A stretch of 64,000 bases of DNA from NCBI RefSeq assembly GCF_001748285.1, contig NZ_BDGT01000010.1, forward strand, positions 1-64,000, in the 5' to 3' direction. Below the pieces are notes generated by a model. The model ran no database searches and was not told where the DNA came from. It was given only the letters and a program-made list of their open reading frames with translations. Below, one piece after another: positions 8,957-16,171 of this stretch (positions within the stretch are counted from its first letter, which is position 1; every line of letters starts with the position of its first letter). The stretch comes from Thermogemmatispora onikobensis. Lineage in GTDB: Bacteria > Chloroflexota > Ktedonobacteria > Ktedonobacterales > Ktedonobacteraceae. Position numbers and translations under genes: made by a program.

Positions 8957-9808
8957 AAGGAATACTCTTCGCTCCTCTTAGTATAGCAAATCAGATGGGA
9001 TCGCAGGGTCACTTTTCACTTGCTGTTGCTCTCCGCTTCCTTGCTGAGTTTCATTGGTATAACGAATAATCCATAGAGATGGTCAAAAAGGAAGCCTTTC
9101 TTCCCCTAGAGTCTGCGCTTACAACAATAAGCATTGAAAATGACATGCTTCTCTCGAAAGAGAGGAGGCTCACGGCGTTATCTTTTGTCATCTTTCACCC
9201 TGAATTCAGAATAATCCTTCATAAGGCTTGTGATCATCTGGGGTCCTGGTGCCAGCCATCAGGCCAGAACCTGGTCAACGCCAGCGGAATTCAGCCGGCA
9301 GCCTGGTCCAGCAGCAGAAGAGATCAGCCCCTGCGCAATGGTGGCCTTCCTGCTGAGCGTTCTCTCCTCCGAGCCGATGATTCCTCTTGCGGTCGCCGTC
9401 TCCCCGTGCTATAGTGTATTTAACATTCCCTTAACATAAGGTTAATATCCATTTAATACTTCCTCAGTCAGAGAACAGCCGGGCAGCGTCGCCCGAGTGG
9501 GCACAGCGGGCCAGGCCGTCAGGCCGACCTCAACGCTATCAGCAGCAGGCACAGCGAGCCTCCAGGGAAAGAGCACAGTAGCCGGACACAGCGACAAGAA
9601 CAAGGGCCAGCCTTGCGCCCACGTCACGAGAAGTACGTATCAAGCACACAGGTGAGTCAGCAGCAACCAACCCACCTTTCGATCTGGCAGCTTGTCTGTC
9701 TGCTCAAACTGGTACCGGTCAAAGTCGCTCCGCGCCTACAAGTGTGGAGCAGGGATCTGATTCCAGGTAATTATATACAACTCAACGGGAGGGGAGAGAG
9801 AGCAAGCA
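8957..9808. other. 852-bp intergenic region
   Basis: It lies between the divergent Gpi18-like gene and the phosphate transporter. The first about 280 bp are clearly more AT-rich than the surroundings. The only strong element is the PHO-box-like array at 9420-9459. A 111-codon open frame at 9079-9414 has no ribosome site and no recognisable protein features, and I do not call it a gene. Confidence 0.6.
9420..9459 (+). promoter_or_regulatory. PHO-box-like array upstream of the Na/Pi cotransporter
   Basis: Four 7-mers TTAACAT, TTAACAT, TTAATAT and TTAATAC begin at 9420, 9431, 9442 and 9453, spaced exactly 11 bp (one helical turn). This matches the architecture of PhoP boxes in Firmicutes (TTAACA-like repeats every 11 bp) and of PhoB boxes in general. 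The next rightward gene is a phosphate transporter, starting 350 bp downstream. Binding by a PhoB/PhoP response regulator under phosphate limitation is inferred. Confidence 0.75.
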
Positions 9809-11443
9809 ATGGCAACGACAAGCAATCCGACAATGGTCGTGGGCCTGTTACTGGGCGGGGCCCTCTTATTACTCTATGGCCTGCGCCTCCTGTCGGAGGC
9901 CATGCAGCGCGCCGCCGGTCCGCGCCTGCAGAAGGCCACCATGGCGCTGGCACAGCGCCCTTTCATGGCGTTTGGCGTTGGTCTGCTGGCAACAGCGCTG
10001 ACGCAGAGTTCAAGCGCAACCTCCTCGCTGCTGGTGGAGCTGGTGAATGCCGAGCTGGTTCCGCTGACGACGGCCTTCGTCATGGTTTTGGGCACCAATG
10101 TCGGCTCCACGCTGGTCGTGCAGTTGCTTGCTTTCCATGTGGCCGACTATGCTATTCCCATCGCCGGAGCAGGGGCCGCCCTGGGACTGCTGACCCAGCA
10201 TAAGCCGCAGCGCGACCTGGGGCAGGCAGCCTTTGGCTTTGGAGTGATCTTACTCGGACTGGCGGCGCTCCAGGCCGGCAGCGCCCCGATCGCGGCCAGC
10301 CCTGTTACCGCCGAGGTGCTGCGCGCTTTGATGGGGGCGCCACTGGTCCTGGCCCTGTTGGGCCTGCTCCTGGCTCTGGCCTTCGCTTCGAGTGCGGCAG
10401 CCATCGGCCTGGTGCTGGTCTTGACAGCCAGTGGAGCGCTCTCCGTCTTTGCCGCTCTGGCCTTGCTCTTCGGAGCTAACATCGGCTCAACGCTGACAGC
10501 CCTGCTGACAGCCATCAGTCACCCCTCGGTTACAGGCCGCCGTCTGGCCCTGCTCCATACTGGCACCAAGTCGCTGGGGGCTGCCATTGCTCTGGCTCTG
10601 CTTCAGCCCTTGACCAGCCTGCTGGCCCAGCTCGGACTGGAACCCGCCTGGCAGGTGGCCTTGACCCATCTGGTCTTTAATCTGGCCCTGGCCACGGTCT
10701 TTGTTCCCCTGGCCGCTCCAGTCACACGCCTCGTGACCGCGCTCCTGCCAGAACAGGAGAATCAATATGAGCAGCCGCTGGGACCACGCTATCTTGATCC
10801 CGAGGCCCTGGCCTCGCCGGCGGTCGCCCTGGGCCAGGCGACGCGCGAGGTGTTGCGCATGGCCGATATTGTGACGGAGATGCTGCGTCTGTCAATGCTG
10901 GCTTTCGAGAAGCCGGACGCCCGCGTGCCGGAGCGCATCAACGAGCTGGATGACCAGCTTGATCAGCTCAATGCCGCCATTAAGCGCTATCTGACGCAGC
11001 TCGATGAGAGCCGCCTGACCCGCGAGCAGGTACAGCGCGAGCTGGCGCTTCTCTATATTATTACCGATCTCGAGGCCATCGGCGATATTATCGATCGACA
11101 GATGATGCGCCTGGCACGCCGCAAGCAACGCCGCCAGGTTGCTTTCTCTGAAGAGGGCTGGCAGGACCTGCTCAATTACCACGATGAGGTGACGGAGGCT
11201 CTGGAACAGGCTCTGGCTGCTCTGGCTTCGCAGGATACTTCGCTGGCCAATGAGTTCTTTGTGCGTAAGGCGGAACTGAGTAAGATGAAGCGCCAGCTCC
11301 ATCTGCGCCACGTGCGCCGCTTGCAGAGTGGCCTCTCGCCGAGCTGGGAGTCAAGCTCTATTCACCTTGATCTCTTGAACGCTCTGAGTCGCGTGCTGTC
11401 CCATGCATCGAACATTGCACATGCAGTGCGCGGCGACCTCTGA
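9809..11443 (+). CDS. Na/Pi cotransporter family protein with PhoU-like domain
   Basis: 544 aa. The N-terminal about 320 residues are the Na+/Pi cotransporter (NptA/PF02690) fold made of two inverted repeats. Repeat 1 has the signature TQSSSATSS and GTNVGST; repeat 2 has FASSAAAIG and GANIGSTLTA, so the second QSS is degenerate (ASS). The C-terminal about 200 residues are helical and PhoU-like (YIITDLEAIGDIIDR), as in bacterial NptA/YjbB proteins. Role: phosphate movement coupled to sodium across the inner membrane. A purine-rich GGGAGGGGAGAGAG site precedes the ATG. A PHO-box-like element lies 350 bp upstream, so control by phosphate limitation is likely. Confidence 0.9.
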   Translation: MATTSNPTMVVGLLLGGALLLLYGLRLLSEAMQRAAGPRLQKATMALAQRPFMAFGVGLLATALTQSSSATSSLLVELVNAELVPLTTAFVMVLGTNVGSTLVVQLLAFHVADYAIPIAGAGAALGLLTQHKPQRDLGQAAFGFGVILLGLAALQAGSAPIAASPVTAEVLRALMGAPLVLALLGLLLALAFASSAAAIGLVLVLTASGALSVFAALALLFGANIGSTLTALLTAISHPSVTGRRLALLHTGTKSLGAAIALALLQPLTSLLAQLGLEPAWQVALTHLVFNLALATVFVPLAAPVTRLVTALLPEQENQYEQPLGPRYLDPEALASPAVALGQATREVLRMADIVTEMLRLSMLAFEKPDARVPERINELDDQLDQLNAAIKRYLTQLDESRLTREQVQRELALLYIITDLEAIGDIIDRQMMRLARRKQRRQVAFSEEGWQDLLNYHDEVTEALEQALAALASQDTSLANEFFVRKAELSKMKRQLHLRHVRRLQSGLSPSWESSSIHLDLLNALSRVLSHASNIAHAVRGDL

Positions 11444-11875: not shown

Positions 11876-12874
11876 ATGTTAAAGGCAAGCTTTGAGATTG
11901 AAGTTATCACCCCTCTCTTTCTGGCCGGGGCCAATCAGGCAGAGGCAGAGCTGCGCCCTCCTCCGTTCCGTGGAGCTATGCGCTACTGGTATCGGGCACT
12001 GATTGGCGGGATTACCGGAGGCGACCTGGATGAGGTGCGCCGGCGCGAGGCGCAGGTGTTCGGCGAGACCGAACACGGGTCACCGATACGTGTTCGTATC
12101 ACGGAGGTAAGGCCTCCAGAGCCCTCACCGCCTGACTTCCGCCAAGATCAGAGTAAGCTAGGCATCCGCTATCTCTTCTGGTCGACGGAAGGCTCCAGCA
12201 ATAATCGACCGCGCCGCCGATGCTGTCCGCCTGGGACGCGCTTCAGGCTTCTGCTCACAGCCCATGAGAAAGATCAGCGCTTTCTCCAAGAGGCGATCAT
12301 CTCCCTCTGGTTACTCACTCACTTCGGGGGACTGGGAGCACGTTCTCGCCGCTGCGCCGGTAGCCTGGCCCTTCGCTCTTTTGCTCTCTCCTTCTCCCCT
12401 GAAGTAGAGCTACCCCTATTGTCGCCAGACCAGGTCACAGATCTTGATGCGTTGGCTACCCTCCTTACACTGGGACTTCAAGAGATTAAGCGTTTTCTCA
12501 GTGTTAGTAAGCTATCCAGTGTTGAAAACGCCCGCTTTGATATCATTGCCCCAGGTAATTGCTATATAGCTCTCCTCTCTCCCCAAAATGGATGGCTAAG
12601 AGTAGATGAGGCGTTAGAGGCCGTCGGCAAGCAGTTGCAGCAATATCGCCGCTCTCTTCCAGCAGATGACCGCAGAGCATTCGGCCTGCCTTTACCTACG
12701 CTCAAGAAACGTCTGGCTTCGCCTCTTCATTTGCATATTGCAACTATTGATAGTTCTTATGTATGTGTTGCAACTATATTTAAAAGTAGATTACTACAGC
12801 AGAGACATTTCAATGTCATTAAAAATTTTATAAAAAATTTCCCAGAAGCAACTAAAAGGGAGATAGAGTTATGA
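11876..12874 (+). CDS. cmr1: CRISPR type III-B subunit Cmr1 (Cas7 family RAMP)
   Basis: 332 aa. Starts with the Cmr1 signature: FEIEVITPLFLAGANQ, then PPPFRGAMRYWYRAL (RAMP RNA-binding loop) and the glycine-rich GGLGARSRRCAG segment. In the Cmr complex this subunit sits at the end of the Cas7 backbone near the 3' part of the crRNA and helps bind target RNA. First gene of the operon; ATG at 11876 follows GAAGG by 10 nt. Its stop overlaps the cas10 start (ATGA). The last 40 codons are strikingly AT-rich (about 26% GC over 12721-12840 by my count), unlike the rest of the gene, although the protein still looks canonical there (ASPLHLHI...). Confidence 0.93.
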   Translation: MLKASFEIEVITPLFLAGANQAEAELRPPPFRGAMRYWYRALIGGITGGDLDEVRRREAQVFGETEHGSPIRVRITEVRPPEPSPPDFRQDQSKLGIRYLFWSTEGSSNNRPRRRCCPPGTRFRLLLTAHEKDQRFLQEAIISLWLLTHFGGLGARSRRCAGSLALRSFALSFSPEVELPLLSPDQVTDLDALATLLTLGLQEIKRFLSVSKLSSVENARFDIIAPGNCYIALLSPQNGWLRVDEALEAVGKQLQQYRRSLPADDRRAFGLPLPTLKKRLASPLHLHIATIDSSYVCVATIFKSRLLQQRHFNVIKNFIKNFPEATKREIEL

Positions 12875-15003
12875 CCCAGTCCTACATGCTCATCTTCGCC
12901 CTGGGGCCGGTGCAATCTTTCATCGCTCAGGCGCGCAAGTCGCGCGATCTCTGGCTAGGCAGCTTCCTGCTCTCCCACCTGATGGAGGCAGCTCTTGCCC
13001 AAGTGCCGCCGGGGGTGCTGGTTTTCCCGACCACGCCCAAGATCGACCGCTCGCGCTGGATACCCGATCTGCCCAATCGCTACGTCGCGGTCTTCTCTCC
13101 AACGGAGACCCAGCCCGACCCACTGGCAGCAGCCCGCCAAACGGCTGAGCAAAGCAAGCAAGCGATTTACAGGGCCTGGCAAGACATCTGCGGGGAGGTC
13201 TATCGGCAGCTCTTCGGCGGCAATGGCACTGATGGGCATGAGACGCTACTGCGCACTATCTGGGAACGTCAGATCGATCCCCAACGCCTCTTTGAGATCT
13301 ACTGGGCCATTGCCTCCAACACCGATGGTCAGGGCCGTCCGCTGGTATATGGGGACTGGTTCAAACGTACCTCCCAGGCGCTCGATGCCCGCAAGAGCCT
13401 GCGCGATTTCGCCGCTCAAGATGAACCCGGCGAGAAAAGCACGCTCTCTGGCGAGCGCGAGGCCCTGCATAGCCAGGGCGAGAGTCGGCAGGAGGTCAGA
13501 GCGTTTTGGATACAGGTAGCGGGCAAGCCGGGGGTTTCGGCTAAGGACCTTGCCTTAGATGGCTCTGAACGTCTGGACGCCATCGATACGGTGAAGCGCT
13601 TTGCTCTGCTCTCAAAGAGCTTCCTCAAAGGTCAAGGGGAGGGCAAGCCGGGGTTGGAACAGGGTCTGGATTTCCCTTCAACCAGCACGATGGCCGCCGC
13701 AGCCTTCATTGAGCGCCTGTTATCCCTGGTGCCTTCGTCAGAATCTCCAAGCAGCGAAATTCAGGAGGCAGTCAAGGGCTGGCAAGAGATTACTGCACTC
13801 CTGAAAAGGGAAAAGCCTCATCTGGCTCTTCCTTACCTGGAAAGGAAAGCTCAGCAGGCTAACCACTCCTGGCTCAAGGATGTTGACGGCGAGTGTGCTT
13901 TTGTCGAAACTTTCACCGCCCAGCGGCTGCGCACGAACTACCGCGCTCTGGTCGCATCGCAGCCGCGGCGCTTTCCCAGTGAATGGGTCATCGAGGAGCC
14001 AGGCTATCTCAGCAGGGCCCACGAAGTACTGAGAGAGCTTCACCGGCTCATTGGTGCGCCTAGTCCTTACTACGCCTTGCTACAGATGGATGGCGACCAG
14101 ATGGGCACCCTCATTGGCGAGGTCCAGAGCCAGGCTGATCACCGTGCCATCAGTGGAGCGCTCTCGACCTTTGCGCGCGAGCATGTTCCCGGCATCGTCG
14201 AGGATGAGCGTCCCGGCAAACTAATCTACGCCGGCGGCGATGACGTGCTGGCTTTGGCACCACTGGCGCAGATGTTCTCTCTCGCCTCAGCCCTGCAGCA
14301 GAACTATCGCGAGATCGTGGGGCCGAGCATACAAACGGCCTCCAACGGGACAAGAACGGCTACGGTCAGTATGGGCATCGCCATCGCTCATCATCTGATG
14401 CCGCTGACGCTGGTACGCCGGATGGCACGTGAGGCTGAGGAACAGGCTAAACAGCGCTATGGCCGCAATGCCCTGGTGGTGACGATTCTCTGGCGCTCCG
14501 GCAATACGCTCTCCGCCGGCTGCCGCTGGGAATATCCTTTTTCGGAGAGTGGCTGGCTGACTATGCTCCCGCTGCAAATCTTCCAACATGTAGTAAACCT
14601 TTTTGCAAGCAATACGCTGTCGCCACGCTGCCTGGAGATTCTCAAAAGGGAGCTGCCGGGGTTAGAGGGCTTGCCACAGGAGGCGCGCTGCAGTGAGATC
14701 GCGCGTGTACTGAAACGGCAATGGAACACTACCGCCCTTCAGTCCGACAAGAAGCCATCGCAGAGCCTGGCCCACGACAAGACACCGCGGGACACTGGCA
14801 ACTCCGAATCTTCCACCAGGCTCATGCCTTACGCCCTGGCCTATGCCCTGGTCCGTCTCGCAGCTCTCATGGAAAAGAGTCAGCCTGGAGCCTTCTCCGG
14901 CCCCGACAACTCTGGCCTGCAGGAGGTCCTGAACTGGCTGCAGATTCTGGCTTTTCTCGCAAGGGAGGCAGGAGACAGTGTATCTTTTCATCGAGCCACA
15001 TGA
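12871..15003 (+). CDS. cmr2: CRISPR type III-B Cas10 (Cmr2), GGDD present, HD domain absent
   Basis: 710 aa. Large subunit of the Cmr effector. It carries a Palm/cyclase domain with the metal motif GGDD at residues 455-458 (YAGGDDVLAL), expected to make cyclic oligoadenylate when target RNA is bound. The protein opens directly with FALGPVQSFIAQARKSRDLW, the segment that in full-length Cmr2 follows the N-terminal HD nuclease domain. No HD domain is present and none is encoded upstream, so target-activated ssDNA cleavage is not expected. Translation is coupled to cmr1 by an ATGA overlap, with GGGAG upstream. It overlaps cmr3 by 26 bp. Confidence 0.93.
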   Translation: MTQSYMLIFALGPVQSFIAQARKSRDLWLGSFLLSHLMEAALAQVPPGVLVFPTTPKIDRSRWIPDLPNRYVAVFSPTETQPDPLAAARQTAEQSKQAIYRAWQDICGEVYRQLFGGNGTDGHETLLRTIWERQIDPQRLFEIYWAIASNTDGQGRPLVYGDWFKRTSQALDARKSLRDFAAQDEPGEKSTLSGEREALHSQGESRQEVRAFWIQVAGKPGVSAKDLALDGSERLDAIDTVKRFALLSKSFLKGQGEGKPGLEQGLDFPSTSTMAAAAFIERLLSLVPSSESPSSEIQEAVKGWQEITALLKREKPHLALPYLERKAQQANHSWLKDVDGECAFVETFTAQRLRTNYRALVASQPRRFPSEWVIEEPGYLSRAHEVLRELHRLIGAPSPYYALLQMDGDQMGTLIGEVQSQADHRAISGALSTFAREHVPGIVEDERPGKLIYAGGDDVLALAPLAQMFSLASALQQNYREIVGPSIQTASNGTRTATVSMGIAIAHHLMPLTLVRRMAREAEEQAKQRYGRNALVVTILWRSGNTLSAGCRWEYPFSESGWLTMLPLQIFQHVVNLFASNTLSPRCLEILKRELPGLEGLPQEARCSEIARVLKRQWNTTALQSDKKPSQSLAHDKTPRDTGNSESSTRLMPYALAYALVRLAALMEKSQPGAFSGPDNSGLQEVLNWLQILAFLAREAGDSVSFHRAT

Positions 15004-16171
15004 GACGCTCCTCTTTCGCAGTGGGCGCCCCTTCGATGCCGGCGAGGTCAACTTTGCCGAATCGCTCTTCCCCCCCACTCCTGAAACCTTACAGGGGTCG
15101 CTGCGGGAGCTGATCGCTCGCCACTGGGACCAGCGCAAGAGCCTGCCCGAGCTCCTGCGTGATCCGGCCCTGACAGCCCTGATCGGTAACCAGACAGGCT
15201 ATGGTCGCCTGCGCATCAGGCTGATCACGCTCGCGCGCCGTCAGAAGGCGCAGAACGGCGCTCAGCGCTTTGAGCTGCTCTATCCCATGCCGGCCCACTT
15301 GCTGCGCGCACCGCACCAGCCAGGCTCCCCCTCCAAACGCCTGCTCCGCCTGAAACCGGCCTCGCCCGCTGGCCTCTGGACCAATCTCCCTCAAGGGCAG
15401 CAGCTACTTTATCCCGAAGGCCAAGAGCAGGCGCAACCGCTTGGCAAGGGGAGCAAGCTGCGAGGCTGGCTGACAGCAGAAGGATTAGAGGCAGCCTTGC
15501 GCTCCAACACTGAGATGAGCGAGACTATGATCATCTCCAACAGCGAGATCTACGAGGAAGAGCCACGCACGGGAATCGCTCGCCAGGAGCGCACGCGTAC
15601 GACAGAGGAGGGTATGCTTTATACCATCTACACTGTGCGCCTGCGACCCAGCTATGGCTTTCTTGTCGATCTGCGCCTGGCTCAGACAGCCGACCCTCTC
15701 AGCGATCAGTTGCTACCTGATGAGCAAACCGCTTTGCTCTTGCGCCTGCCCGCGCCCCCGACGCACTTCGCCCATACCCTGGGCGGCGAGAGCCGTCCTG
15801 TGACCGTCTGGCTGATTGATCCCCAGGCTACACCGGTGCGGGCCGCCGCGCCTCAGACGCCAGATCACCTCAGCGGGCAGCGGCTCCTGCTTTATCTGGC
15901 CACCCCAGCGATCTTCAGAAAGGGCTGGCAACCTGAGCGCTGGCCCGCAGATCTCGGCGCACCTATTGCTGCGGCTATCAGTGGCTACCAGTGGATTGGC
16001 GGATGGCAGATGAACCCCAGTCATCACGGTGGTCAGAGCAAAACAGCCCGGCGCTGCGTTCCTGCAGGAAGCGTCTACTTTTTTGACAAGAAAACAGATA
16101 GAGATCTCTACCAGCTAACAGATATCGGCAAAGAAATAGGCTATGGTATGATCCTTAAAGGAGTCTGGTGA
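14978..16171 (+). CDS. cmr3: CRISPR type III-B subunit Cmr3 (Cas5 family RAMP)
   Basis: 397 aa. N-terminus YLFIEPHETLLFRSGRPFDAGEVNFAESLFPPTPETLQGSLREL is the Cmr3 signature (Cas5-like RAMP). Cmr3 caps the complex at the 5' repeat-derived handle of the crRNA and contacts Cas10. The start is GTG at 14978 inside the cas10 end, with GGGAGG about 9 nt upstream. A later DKKTDRDLYQLTDIGKEIGYGMILKG segment is the usual glycine-rich C-terminus. The cmr4 ATG comes 1 nt after its stop. Confidence 0.93.
   Translation: MYLFIEPHETLLFRSGRPFDAGEVNFAESLFPPTPETLQGSLRELIARHWDQRKSLPELLRDPALTALIGNQTGYGRLRIRLITLARRQKAQNGAQRFELLYPMPAHLLRAPHQPGSPSKRLLRLKPASPAGLWTNLPQGQQLLYPEGQEQAQPLGKGSKLRGWLTAEGLEAALRSNTEMSETMIISNSEIYEEEPRTGIARQERTRTTEEGMLYTIYTVRLRPSYGFLVDLRLAQTADPLSDQLLPDEQTALLLRLPAPPTHFAHTLGGESRPVTVWLIDPQATPVRAAAPQTPDHLSGQRLLLYLATPAIFRKGWQPERWPADLGAPIAAAISGYQWIGGWQMNPSHHGGQSKTARRCVPAGSVYFFDKKTDRDLYQLTDIGKEIGYGMILKGVW

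Follow-up and report, generated by a model that had tools for sequence, protein, structure and literature searches.

A tandem array of four 11-bp repeats of the PHO-box type precedes a sodium/phosphate (Na/Pi) cotransporter gene in Thermogemmatispora onikobensis, a member of a family of bacteria of soil and hot springs. The array is conserved before all orthologues of that gene and lies just downstream of a conserved −35/−10 pair, whereas arrays with the same type of unit occupy a second fixed position, upstream of the −10 element, at pst promoters. From this combination, we infer that a Pho regulator probably represses the Na/Pi transporter gene when phosphate is scarce and activates pst and a symporter-like gene. 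The binding of the regulator, its identity, the sign of its effects and the direction of transport are in each case inferred from the sequence.

The array spans positions 9420–9463 on the plus strand of the window (i.e., the whole 64,000-nt stretch analyzed) and reads TTAACATTCCC TTAACATAAGG TTAATATCCAT TTAATACTTCC. These are four units at exact 11-bp steps (9420–9430, 9431–9441, 9442–9452 and 9453–9463, the core of the last ending at 9459), seen both by direct reading and with a matrix derived from pst promoters, and they follow the pattern TTAAYAY. A first-pass annotation of this DNA had described 7-mers at exactly 11-bp steps across 9420–9459, a description that stands even though the fourth core, TTAATAC, deviates by one letter. 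The array is thus built as PHO boxes are defined, i.e., from at least two direct repeats that follow each other every 11 bp and comprise ~7 conserved bp and 4 bp of lower conservation. A TTAACA-type Pho box belongs to Bacillus PhoP, and its likeness to the Na/Pi array is plausible. The unit had also been set apart from the GTTCACC type of Streptomyces, a contrast with which the available portion of PMC4415409 agrees.

Allowing up to two mismatches, a two-unit pattern matched the window three times, each time within the array, compared to a mean of 0.12 and a maximum of 1 in shuffled sequences. Allowing up to one mismatch, it matched the whole 5.56-Mb genome six times, i.e., the three matches in the array and three single sites. 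We also scored the window with a matrix built from 48 units of 12 pst promoters, all from other genera and none from the genus of the host: the array came out on top with 40.6 bits, the best site outside it reached 14.1 bits, and the maximum over 100 Markov-shuffled windows was 16.45 bits. In the stretches scanned from the rest of the genome, this matrix also detected weaker arrays upstream of a phosphate:H+ symporter-like gene (28.0 bits) and a second PstS-like gene (21.3 bits).

The next gene (9809–11443, plus strand) encodes, as had been claimed, a phosphate transporter: its 544-aa product combines a Na_Pi_cotrans domain (PF02690, 6.9e-45) with a C-terminal PhoU domain (PF01895, 1.2e-19). 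The protein scored above the cut-offs of the bacterial Na/Pi symporter families NF037997 (140.2 vs 50) and PF02690 (152.9 vs 29.1), and below that of TIGR00704 (190.6, cut-off 210.1). The Na/Pi-PhoU layout is probably also that of NptA and YjbB. Based on the available portions of the respective papers, NptA of S. pneumoniae is a low-affinity Na/Pi-type importer (PMC4913102) and YjbB of enteric bacteria a Na/Pi-type proposed exporter (PMC11389368); both resemble the 544-aa protein in being bacterial proteins of the Na/Pi cotransporter type, a likeness drawn from their descriptions, which mention no control by a box lying over the start of transcription. Directly after the transporter gene, positions 11876–16171 (plus strand) carry type III CRISPR genes encoding a RAMP protein, Cas10/Cmr2 and Cmr3 according to Pfam.

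We then considered the conservation of the array. A protein search across 61 genomes, including that of the host (E of 1e-20 or better), placed the Na/Pi protein at 24 places in 13 genomes. When orthologues were defined as copies with ≥60% identity (one of which, in G004, is truncated by a contig end), the array preceded 11 out of 11, representing 5 genera and 60–98% protein identity. At the 13 paralogue places, by contrast, no array was found when 430 nt, and then 1500 nt, upstream were inspected. One genome of the same genus (G002) has neither the Na/Pi match nor its array, yet has kept a pst operon with a five-unit array.

Across the 47 genomes of the class, a three-unit motif yielded 27 matches in 13 genomes, compared to 2 for the reversed pattern. 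Grouped by eye, these matches form 16 places, 11 of them at Na/Pi genes; the others lie at genes for an MgtC protein (G016), a TauE/SafE protein (G009), a 1213-aa protein (G015) and a RimK-like ATP-grasp protein (G016), and the sixteenth is at C1:2243419 of G009. The 1213-aa product after the array on contig C42 of G015 was considered by eye as a phosphoesterase, a name that received no support from Pfam or NCBIfam. With a looser motif, 40 matches were obtained in 61 relatives vs 11 for the control, so that lone weak matches outside the family are untrustworthy. A search of 84,980 species genomes for the exact pattern of TATAGT followed by the array retrieved 15 stretches, 10 of them from Ktedonobacteria (nine before Na/Pi genes, one before MgtC), with the other five distributed over Clostridia (three), Xanthocytophaga (one) and a sequence without assignment (one), before unrelated or unclear genes. 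In a Lachnospiraceae metagenome-assembled genome (L118, 2736–2774, minus strand), TATAGT is followed by four TTAACA units at 11-bp steps, with no clear gene near downstream; this is possibly a Firmicutes Pho box or a chance occurrence in AT-rich DNA.

The promoter at the Na/Pi gene is also conserved. We predict a −35 element, TTGCGG, at 9387–9392 and an extended −10 element, TGC-TATAGT, at 9407–9415 (hexamer 9410–9415), both on the plus strand. An alignment of seven promoters is largely invariant over the CTTGC of the −35 region, the TG of the extended −10 and the first three unit cores, with CTTGC, TG and the TA of the hexamer unchanged throughout, and diverges past the array. In all 11 Na/Pi promoters, TTGNNN and TANNNT are separated by 17 nt and the pair ends 2–5 bp upstream of the first unit; the hexamer is TATAGT in 10 promoters and TAAAAT in one, and the array has four units in 10 and three in genome G010. 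The frequency of this arrangement in shuffled flanks of the eleven was 0.0004–0.007. Extrapolating from the −10, transcription would start at ~9422, inside the first unit, and the array would thus span the predicted start. The −35 element matches the consensus at 3 of 6 positions, and a generic promoter scan did not report the conserved −35/−10 because its −35 rule is stricter; the same scan pointed to TTAACA-17-TAATAT within the array as a possible second promoter.

At pst promoters, the same kind of array is positioned differently. We collected 24 pst loci, i.e., 6 from the genus of the host and 18 places found through PstC in 17 other genomes of the family, and detected an array at 22 (units such as TTAACAT, TTAACAA, ATAAAGC and TTAATTC), with none in the stretches available from G013 and G016, the latter being the first 700 bases of a contig. 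In all 22 arrays, which cover 10 genera, the last TTAA and a TANNNT hexamer are exactly 15 nt apart, counted from start to start (21 of 21 without G010, whose anchor was found with a pattern containing this hexamer and is not independent), and any other offset between 5 and 30 is represented by at most one array. In contrast, TANNNT occurred at +15 in none of the 11 Na/Pi arrays, and anywhere between +8 and +30 in only two (G010 at 30, G026 at 13). The Na/Pi-type arrangement was in turn seen in 2 of the 22 pst arrays and in 0 of 12 symporter arrays. The arrays before MgtC and TauE/SafE also display it, for a total of 13 out of 15 arrays examined, and those of G015 C42 and G016 C74 fit neither geometry.

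The pst operon of the host includes pstS, pstC, pstA, two pstB-like genes and, as its last gene, a response regulator (L071, 5437–6285, minus strand); pstS, pstB and the regulator were named by family and the others by position. No histidine kinase was seen among the large reading frames flanking this operon. Its array consists of five TTAA units, at steps of 11, 10, 11 and 11, followed by TACAAT. A genome scan with TTAAYAT, which the first-pass annotation had proposed in order to see whether hits precede pst, missed this operon, whose TTAA array is divergent and came to light by direct reading. The pst units of the genus (TTAAAGS, TTAACCS) differ from TTAAYAT past the TTAA core, so that core and step are common with the Na/Pi array and less of the remainder is.

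The geometry found at pst extends to other genes. Upstream of the phosphate:H+ symporter-like MFS gene of the host (L131, 5597–7259, plus strand; TIGR00887 341 bits, below the cut-off of 610), which adjoins a second PhoB-like regulator gene, the array reads ATAACATTGGCGCGC and is followed by TACGAT, with the same spacing as at pst, i.e., in activation geometry. Expressed as a single pattern (TTAA-N7-TTAA-N7-WTAA-N11-TANNNT), this geometry matched exactly 45 times, in 29 of the 47 genomes, compared to no match for the control. We annotated 25 of these, leaving out 20 (11 of them from the genus of the host): 11 preceded symporter-like genes, named by likeness to the host protein matching TIGR00887, 4 PstS-like genes, 1 a sulfatase-fold gene, 3 genes whose products match propellers weakly or not at all, 1 a TerC gene located 376 nt off and 5 nothing clear. 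Within the host genome, exact matches occur only twice, at pst and at the symporter gene. With two mismatches, 9 matches were obtained vs 7 for the control, i.e., the +15 pattern is no longer specific under relaxed matching. In three genera (G018, G025 and G013; L165, L169 and L171), the proteins encoded after an exact array of activation type look related to one another and match beta-propellers weakly or not at all; their gene is a candidate phosphate-starvation gene.

Given these two positions, the Na/Pi array is probably the operator of a Pho response regulator (PhoB/RegX3-like, OmpR family), with its four 11-bp units accommodating two head-to-tail dimers. Repression is predicted because the array lies just downstream of the conserved −35/−10: at about −2 to +42 it would be in a repressor position, from which the bound regulator would obstruct RNA polymerase where transcription is predicted to begin. 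The Na/Pi-PhoU transporter would then be made when phosphate is plentiful and switched off in phosphate starvation. At pst and the phosphate:H+ symporter-like gene, where its sites lie immediately before the −10, this regulator would act as an activator. Switching the transporter off in starvation would be desirable for a low-affinity importer and an exporter alike.

The first-pass annotation had proposed a PHO box ahead of the transporter. The box itself is borne out by the 11 orthologues and by the units at pst and symporter genes; the array is not placed as an activating element would be, being downstream of the −35/−10. In a classical activating PHO box, the bound regulator would recruit RNA polymerase to a promoter in or downstream of the array, and the transporter would be induced in phosphate starvation. 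Activation is the role of most known PHO boxes, the array does precede the gene in the same direction, and TTAACA-17-TAATAT could be read as an internal promoter. However, the hexamer that follows every pst array at +15 is missing from every Na/Pi array, and the conserved −35/−10 sits upstream of the array instead, which makes this explanation unlikely.

Alternatively, the array could be the operator of another, non-phosphate OmpR-family regulator, for which the phosphate genes would be a part of the targets. An 11-bp step is usual among OmpR-family sites, PhoB-like regulators are numerous in the host genome, where the PhoB model has 68 matches, and an array is also seen, in one case each, before MgtC, TauE/SafE and ATP-grasp genes. 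The regulators next to the activation-type arrays scored below the cut-off of the PhoB equivalog TIGR02154 (296.2 bits): the pst-linked protein reached 231.1 bits and the symporter-linked one 247.8 bits. Since the best solved relative of the pst-linked regulator is RegX3 and the PhoB cut-off was missed, we call it PhoB-like by position only. Furthermore, pst units in the genus of the host diverge after TTAA, and the Na/Pi array may therefore have a different OmpR-family regulator. A regulator unrelated to phosphate nevertheless appears quite improbable, as 11 of the 16 three-unit places in the class are Na/Pi genes and most genera carry similar units in their pst and symporter promoters.

The remaining explanations fare worse. 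If the predicted start is right, the array is part of the transcript, in a leader of ~390 nt in this genus (the start codon is 389 nt past the array start, and direct reading assigns 9464–9808 on the plus strand to the remainder of the predicted leader), and the repeats could function in RNA as a long-leader element. This is very hard to reconcile with the pst and symporter units, which are upstream of the −10 and would be outside the transcript, and no Rfam family matched within 8957–9900. A chance or functionless leftover repeat can be set aside almost entirely, as the array is far above the window expectation and has been kept in 5 genera despite diverged flanks.

The favored reading, a Pho regulator with opposite effects from two positions, can be compared with known systems as described in the available portions of the cited papers. 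The nearest consensus among those compared is the cyanobacterial SphR/PhoB box, CTTAACCT, with 8 bp + 3 bp and a TTAA core, which occurs before pst genes in at least three tandem units and needs TTAA for binding in EMSA (PMC1906773, PMC11126600). Tandem direct repeats, 11-bp step and TTAA core are shared with the Na/Pi array, whereas the unit is not TTAACAT, and the cyanobacterial box is described as activating while the Na/Pi array lies over a predicted start. E. coli PhoB activates from a box that, at pst, ends ~10 bp before the −10 hexamer (PMC1906773), and its 11-bp direct repeats upstream of the −10 resemble the Ktedonobacterial pst and symporter promoters (PMC4415409, PMC1906773); its unit, CTGTCAT, is different, and the Na/Pi array is on the opposite side of the −10. 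For opposite effects of one phosphorylated Pho regulator depending on the promoter, B. subtilis PhoP offers a parallel, activating tua and repressing tagAB (PMC6232261), although these targets are cell-wall genes and not a phosphate transporter. In S. meliloti, low-affinity phosphate transport by pit is repressed as pst is induced (PMC8829014), i.e., a second phosphate transporter goes down as pst goes up, as proposed here; the Na/Pi-PhoU protein belongs to another transporter family and to Chloroflexota, and its case is argued from sequence.

PHO boxes and Pho repression are thus already known kinds of regulation. A Ktedonobacterial Pho regulon, or its box with two positions, was not found in the open-licence PMC literature at the level of titles and abstract starts. 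More tentatively, the Pho regulon of Ktedonobacteria may be split by box position, with boxes upstream of the −10 activating pst and the phosphate:H+ symporter and start-site boxes silencing phosphate outlets or brakes, namely a Na/Pi-PhoU protein acting as an exporter, the role proposed for YjbB, and, in single genomes, MgtC and TauE/SafE; we regard this extension as possible rather than probable, and if true, the repressed genes would mark a phosphate overflow system. Taken together, these results supply a sequence-level Pho regulon for Ktedonobacteria and a signed prediction, i.e., a single motif that would have opposite effects from two fixed positions, the sign going beyond what the first-pass annotation had claimed. 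They also bear on the role of the Na/Pi-PhoU transporter, which would be linked to phosphate plenty, through low-affinity import or export, rather than to starvation.
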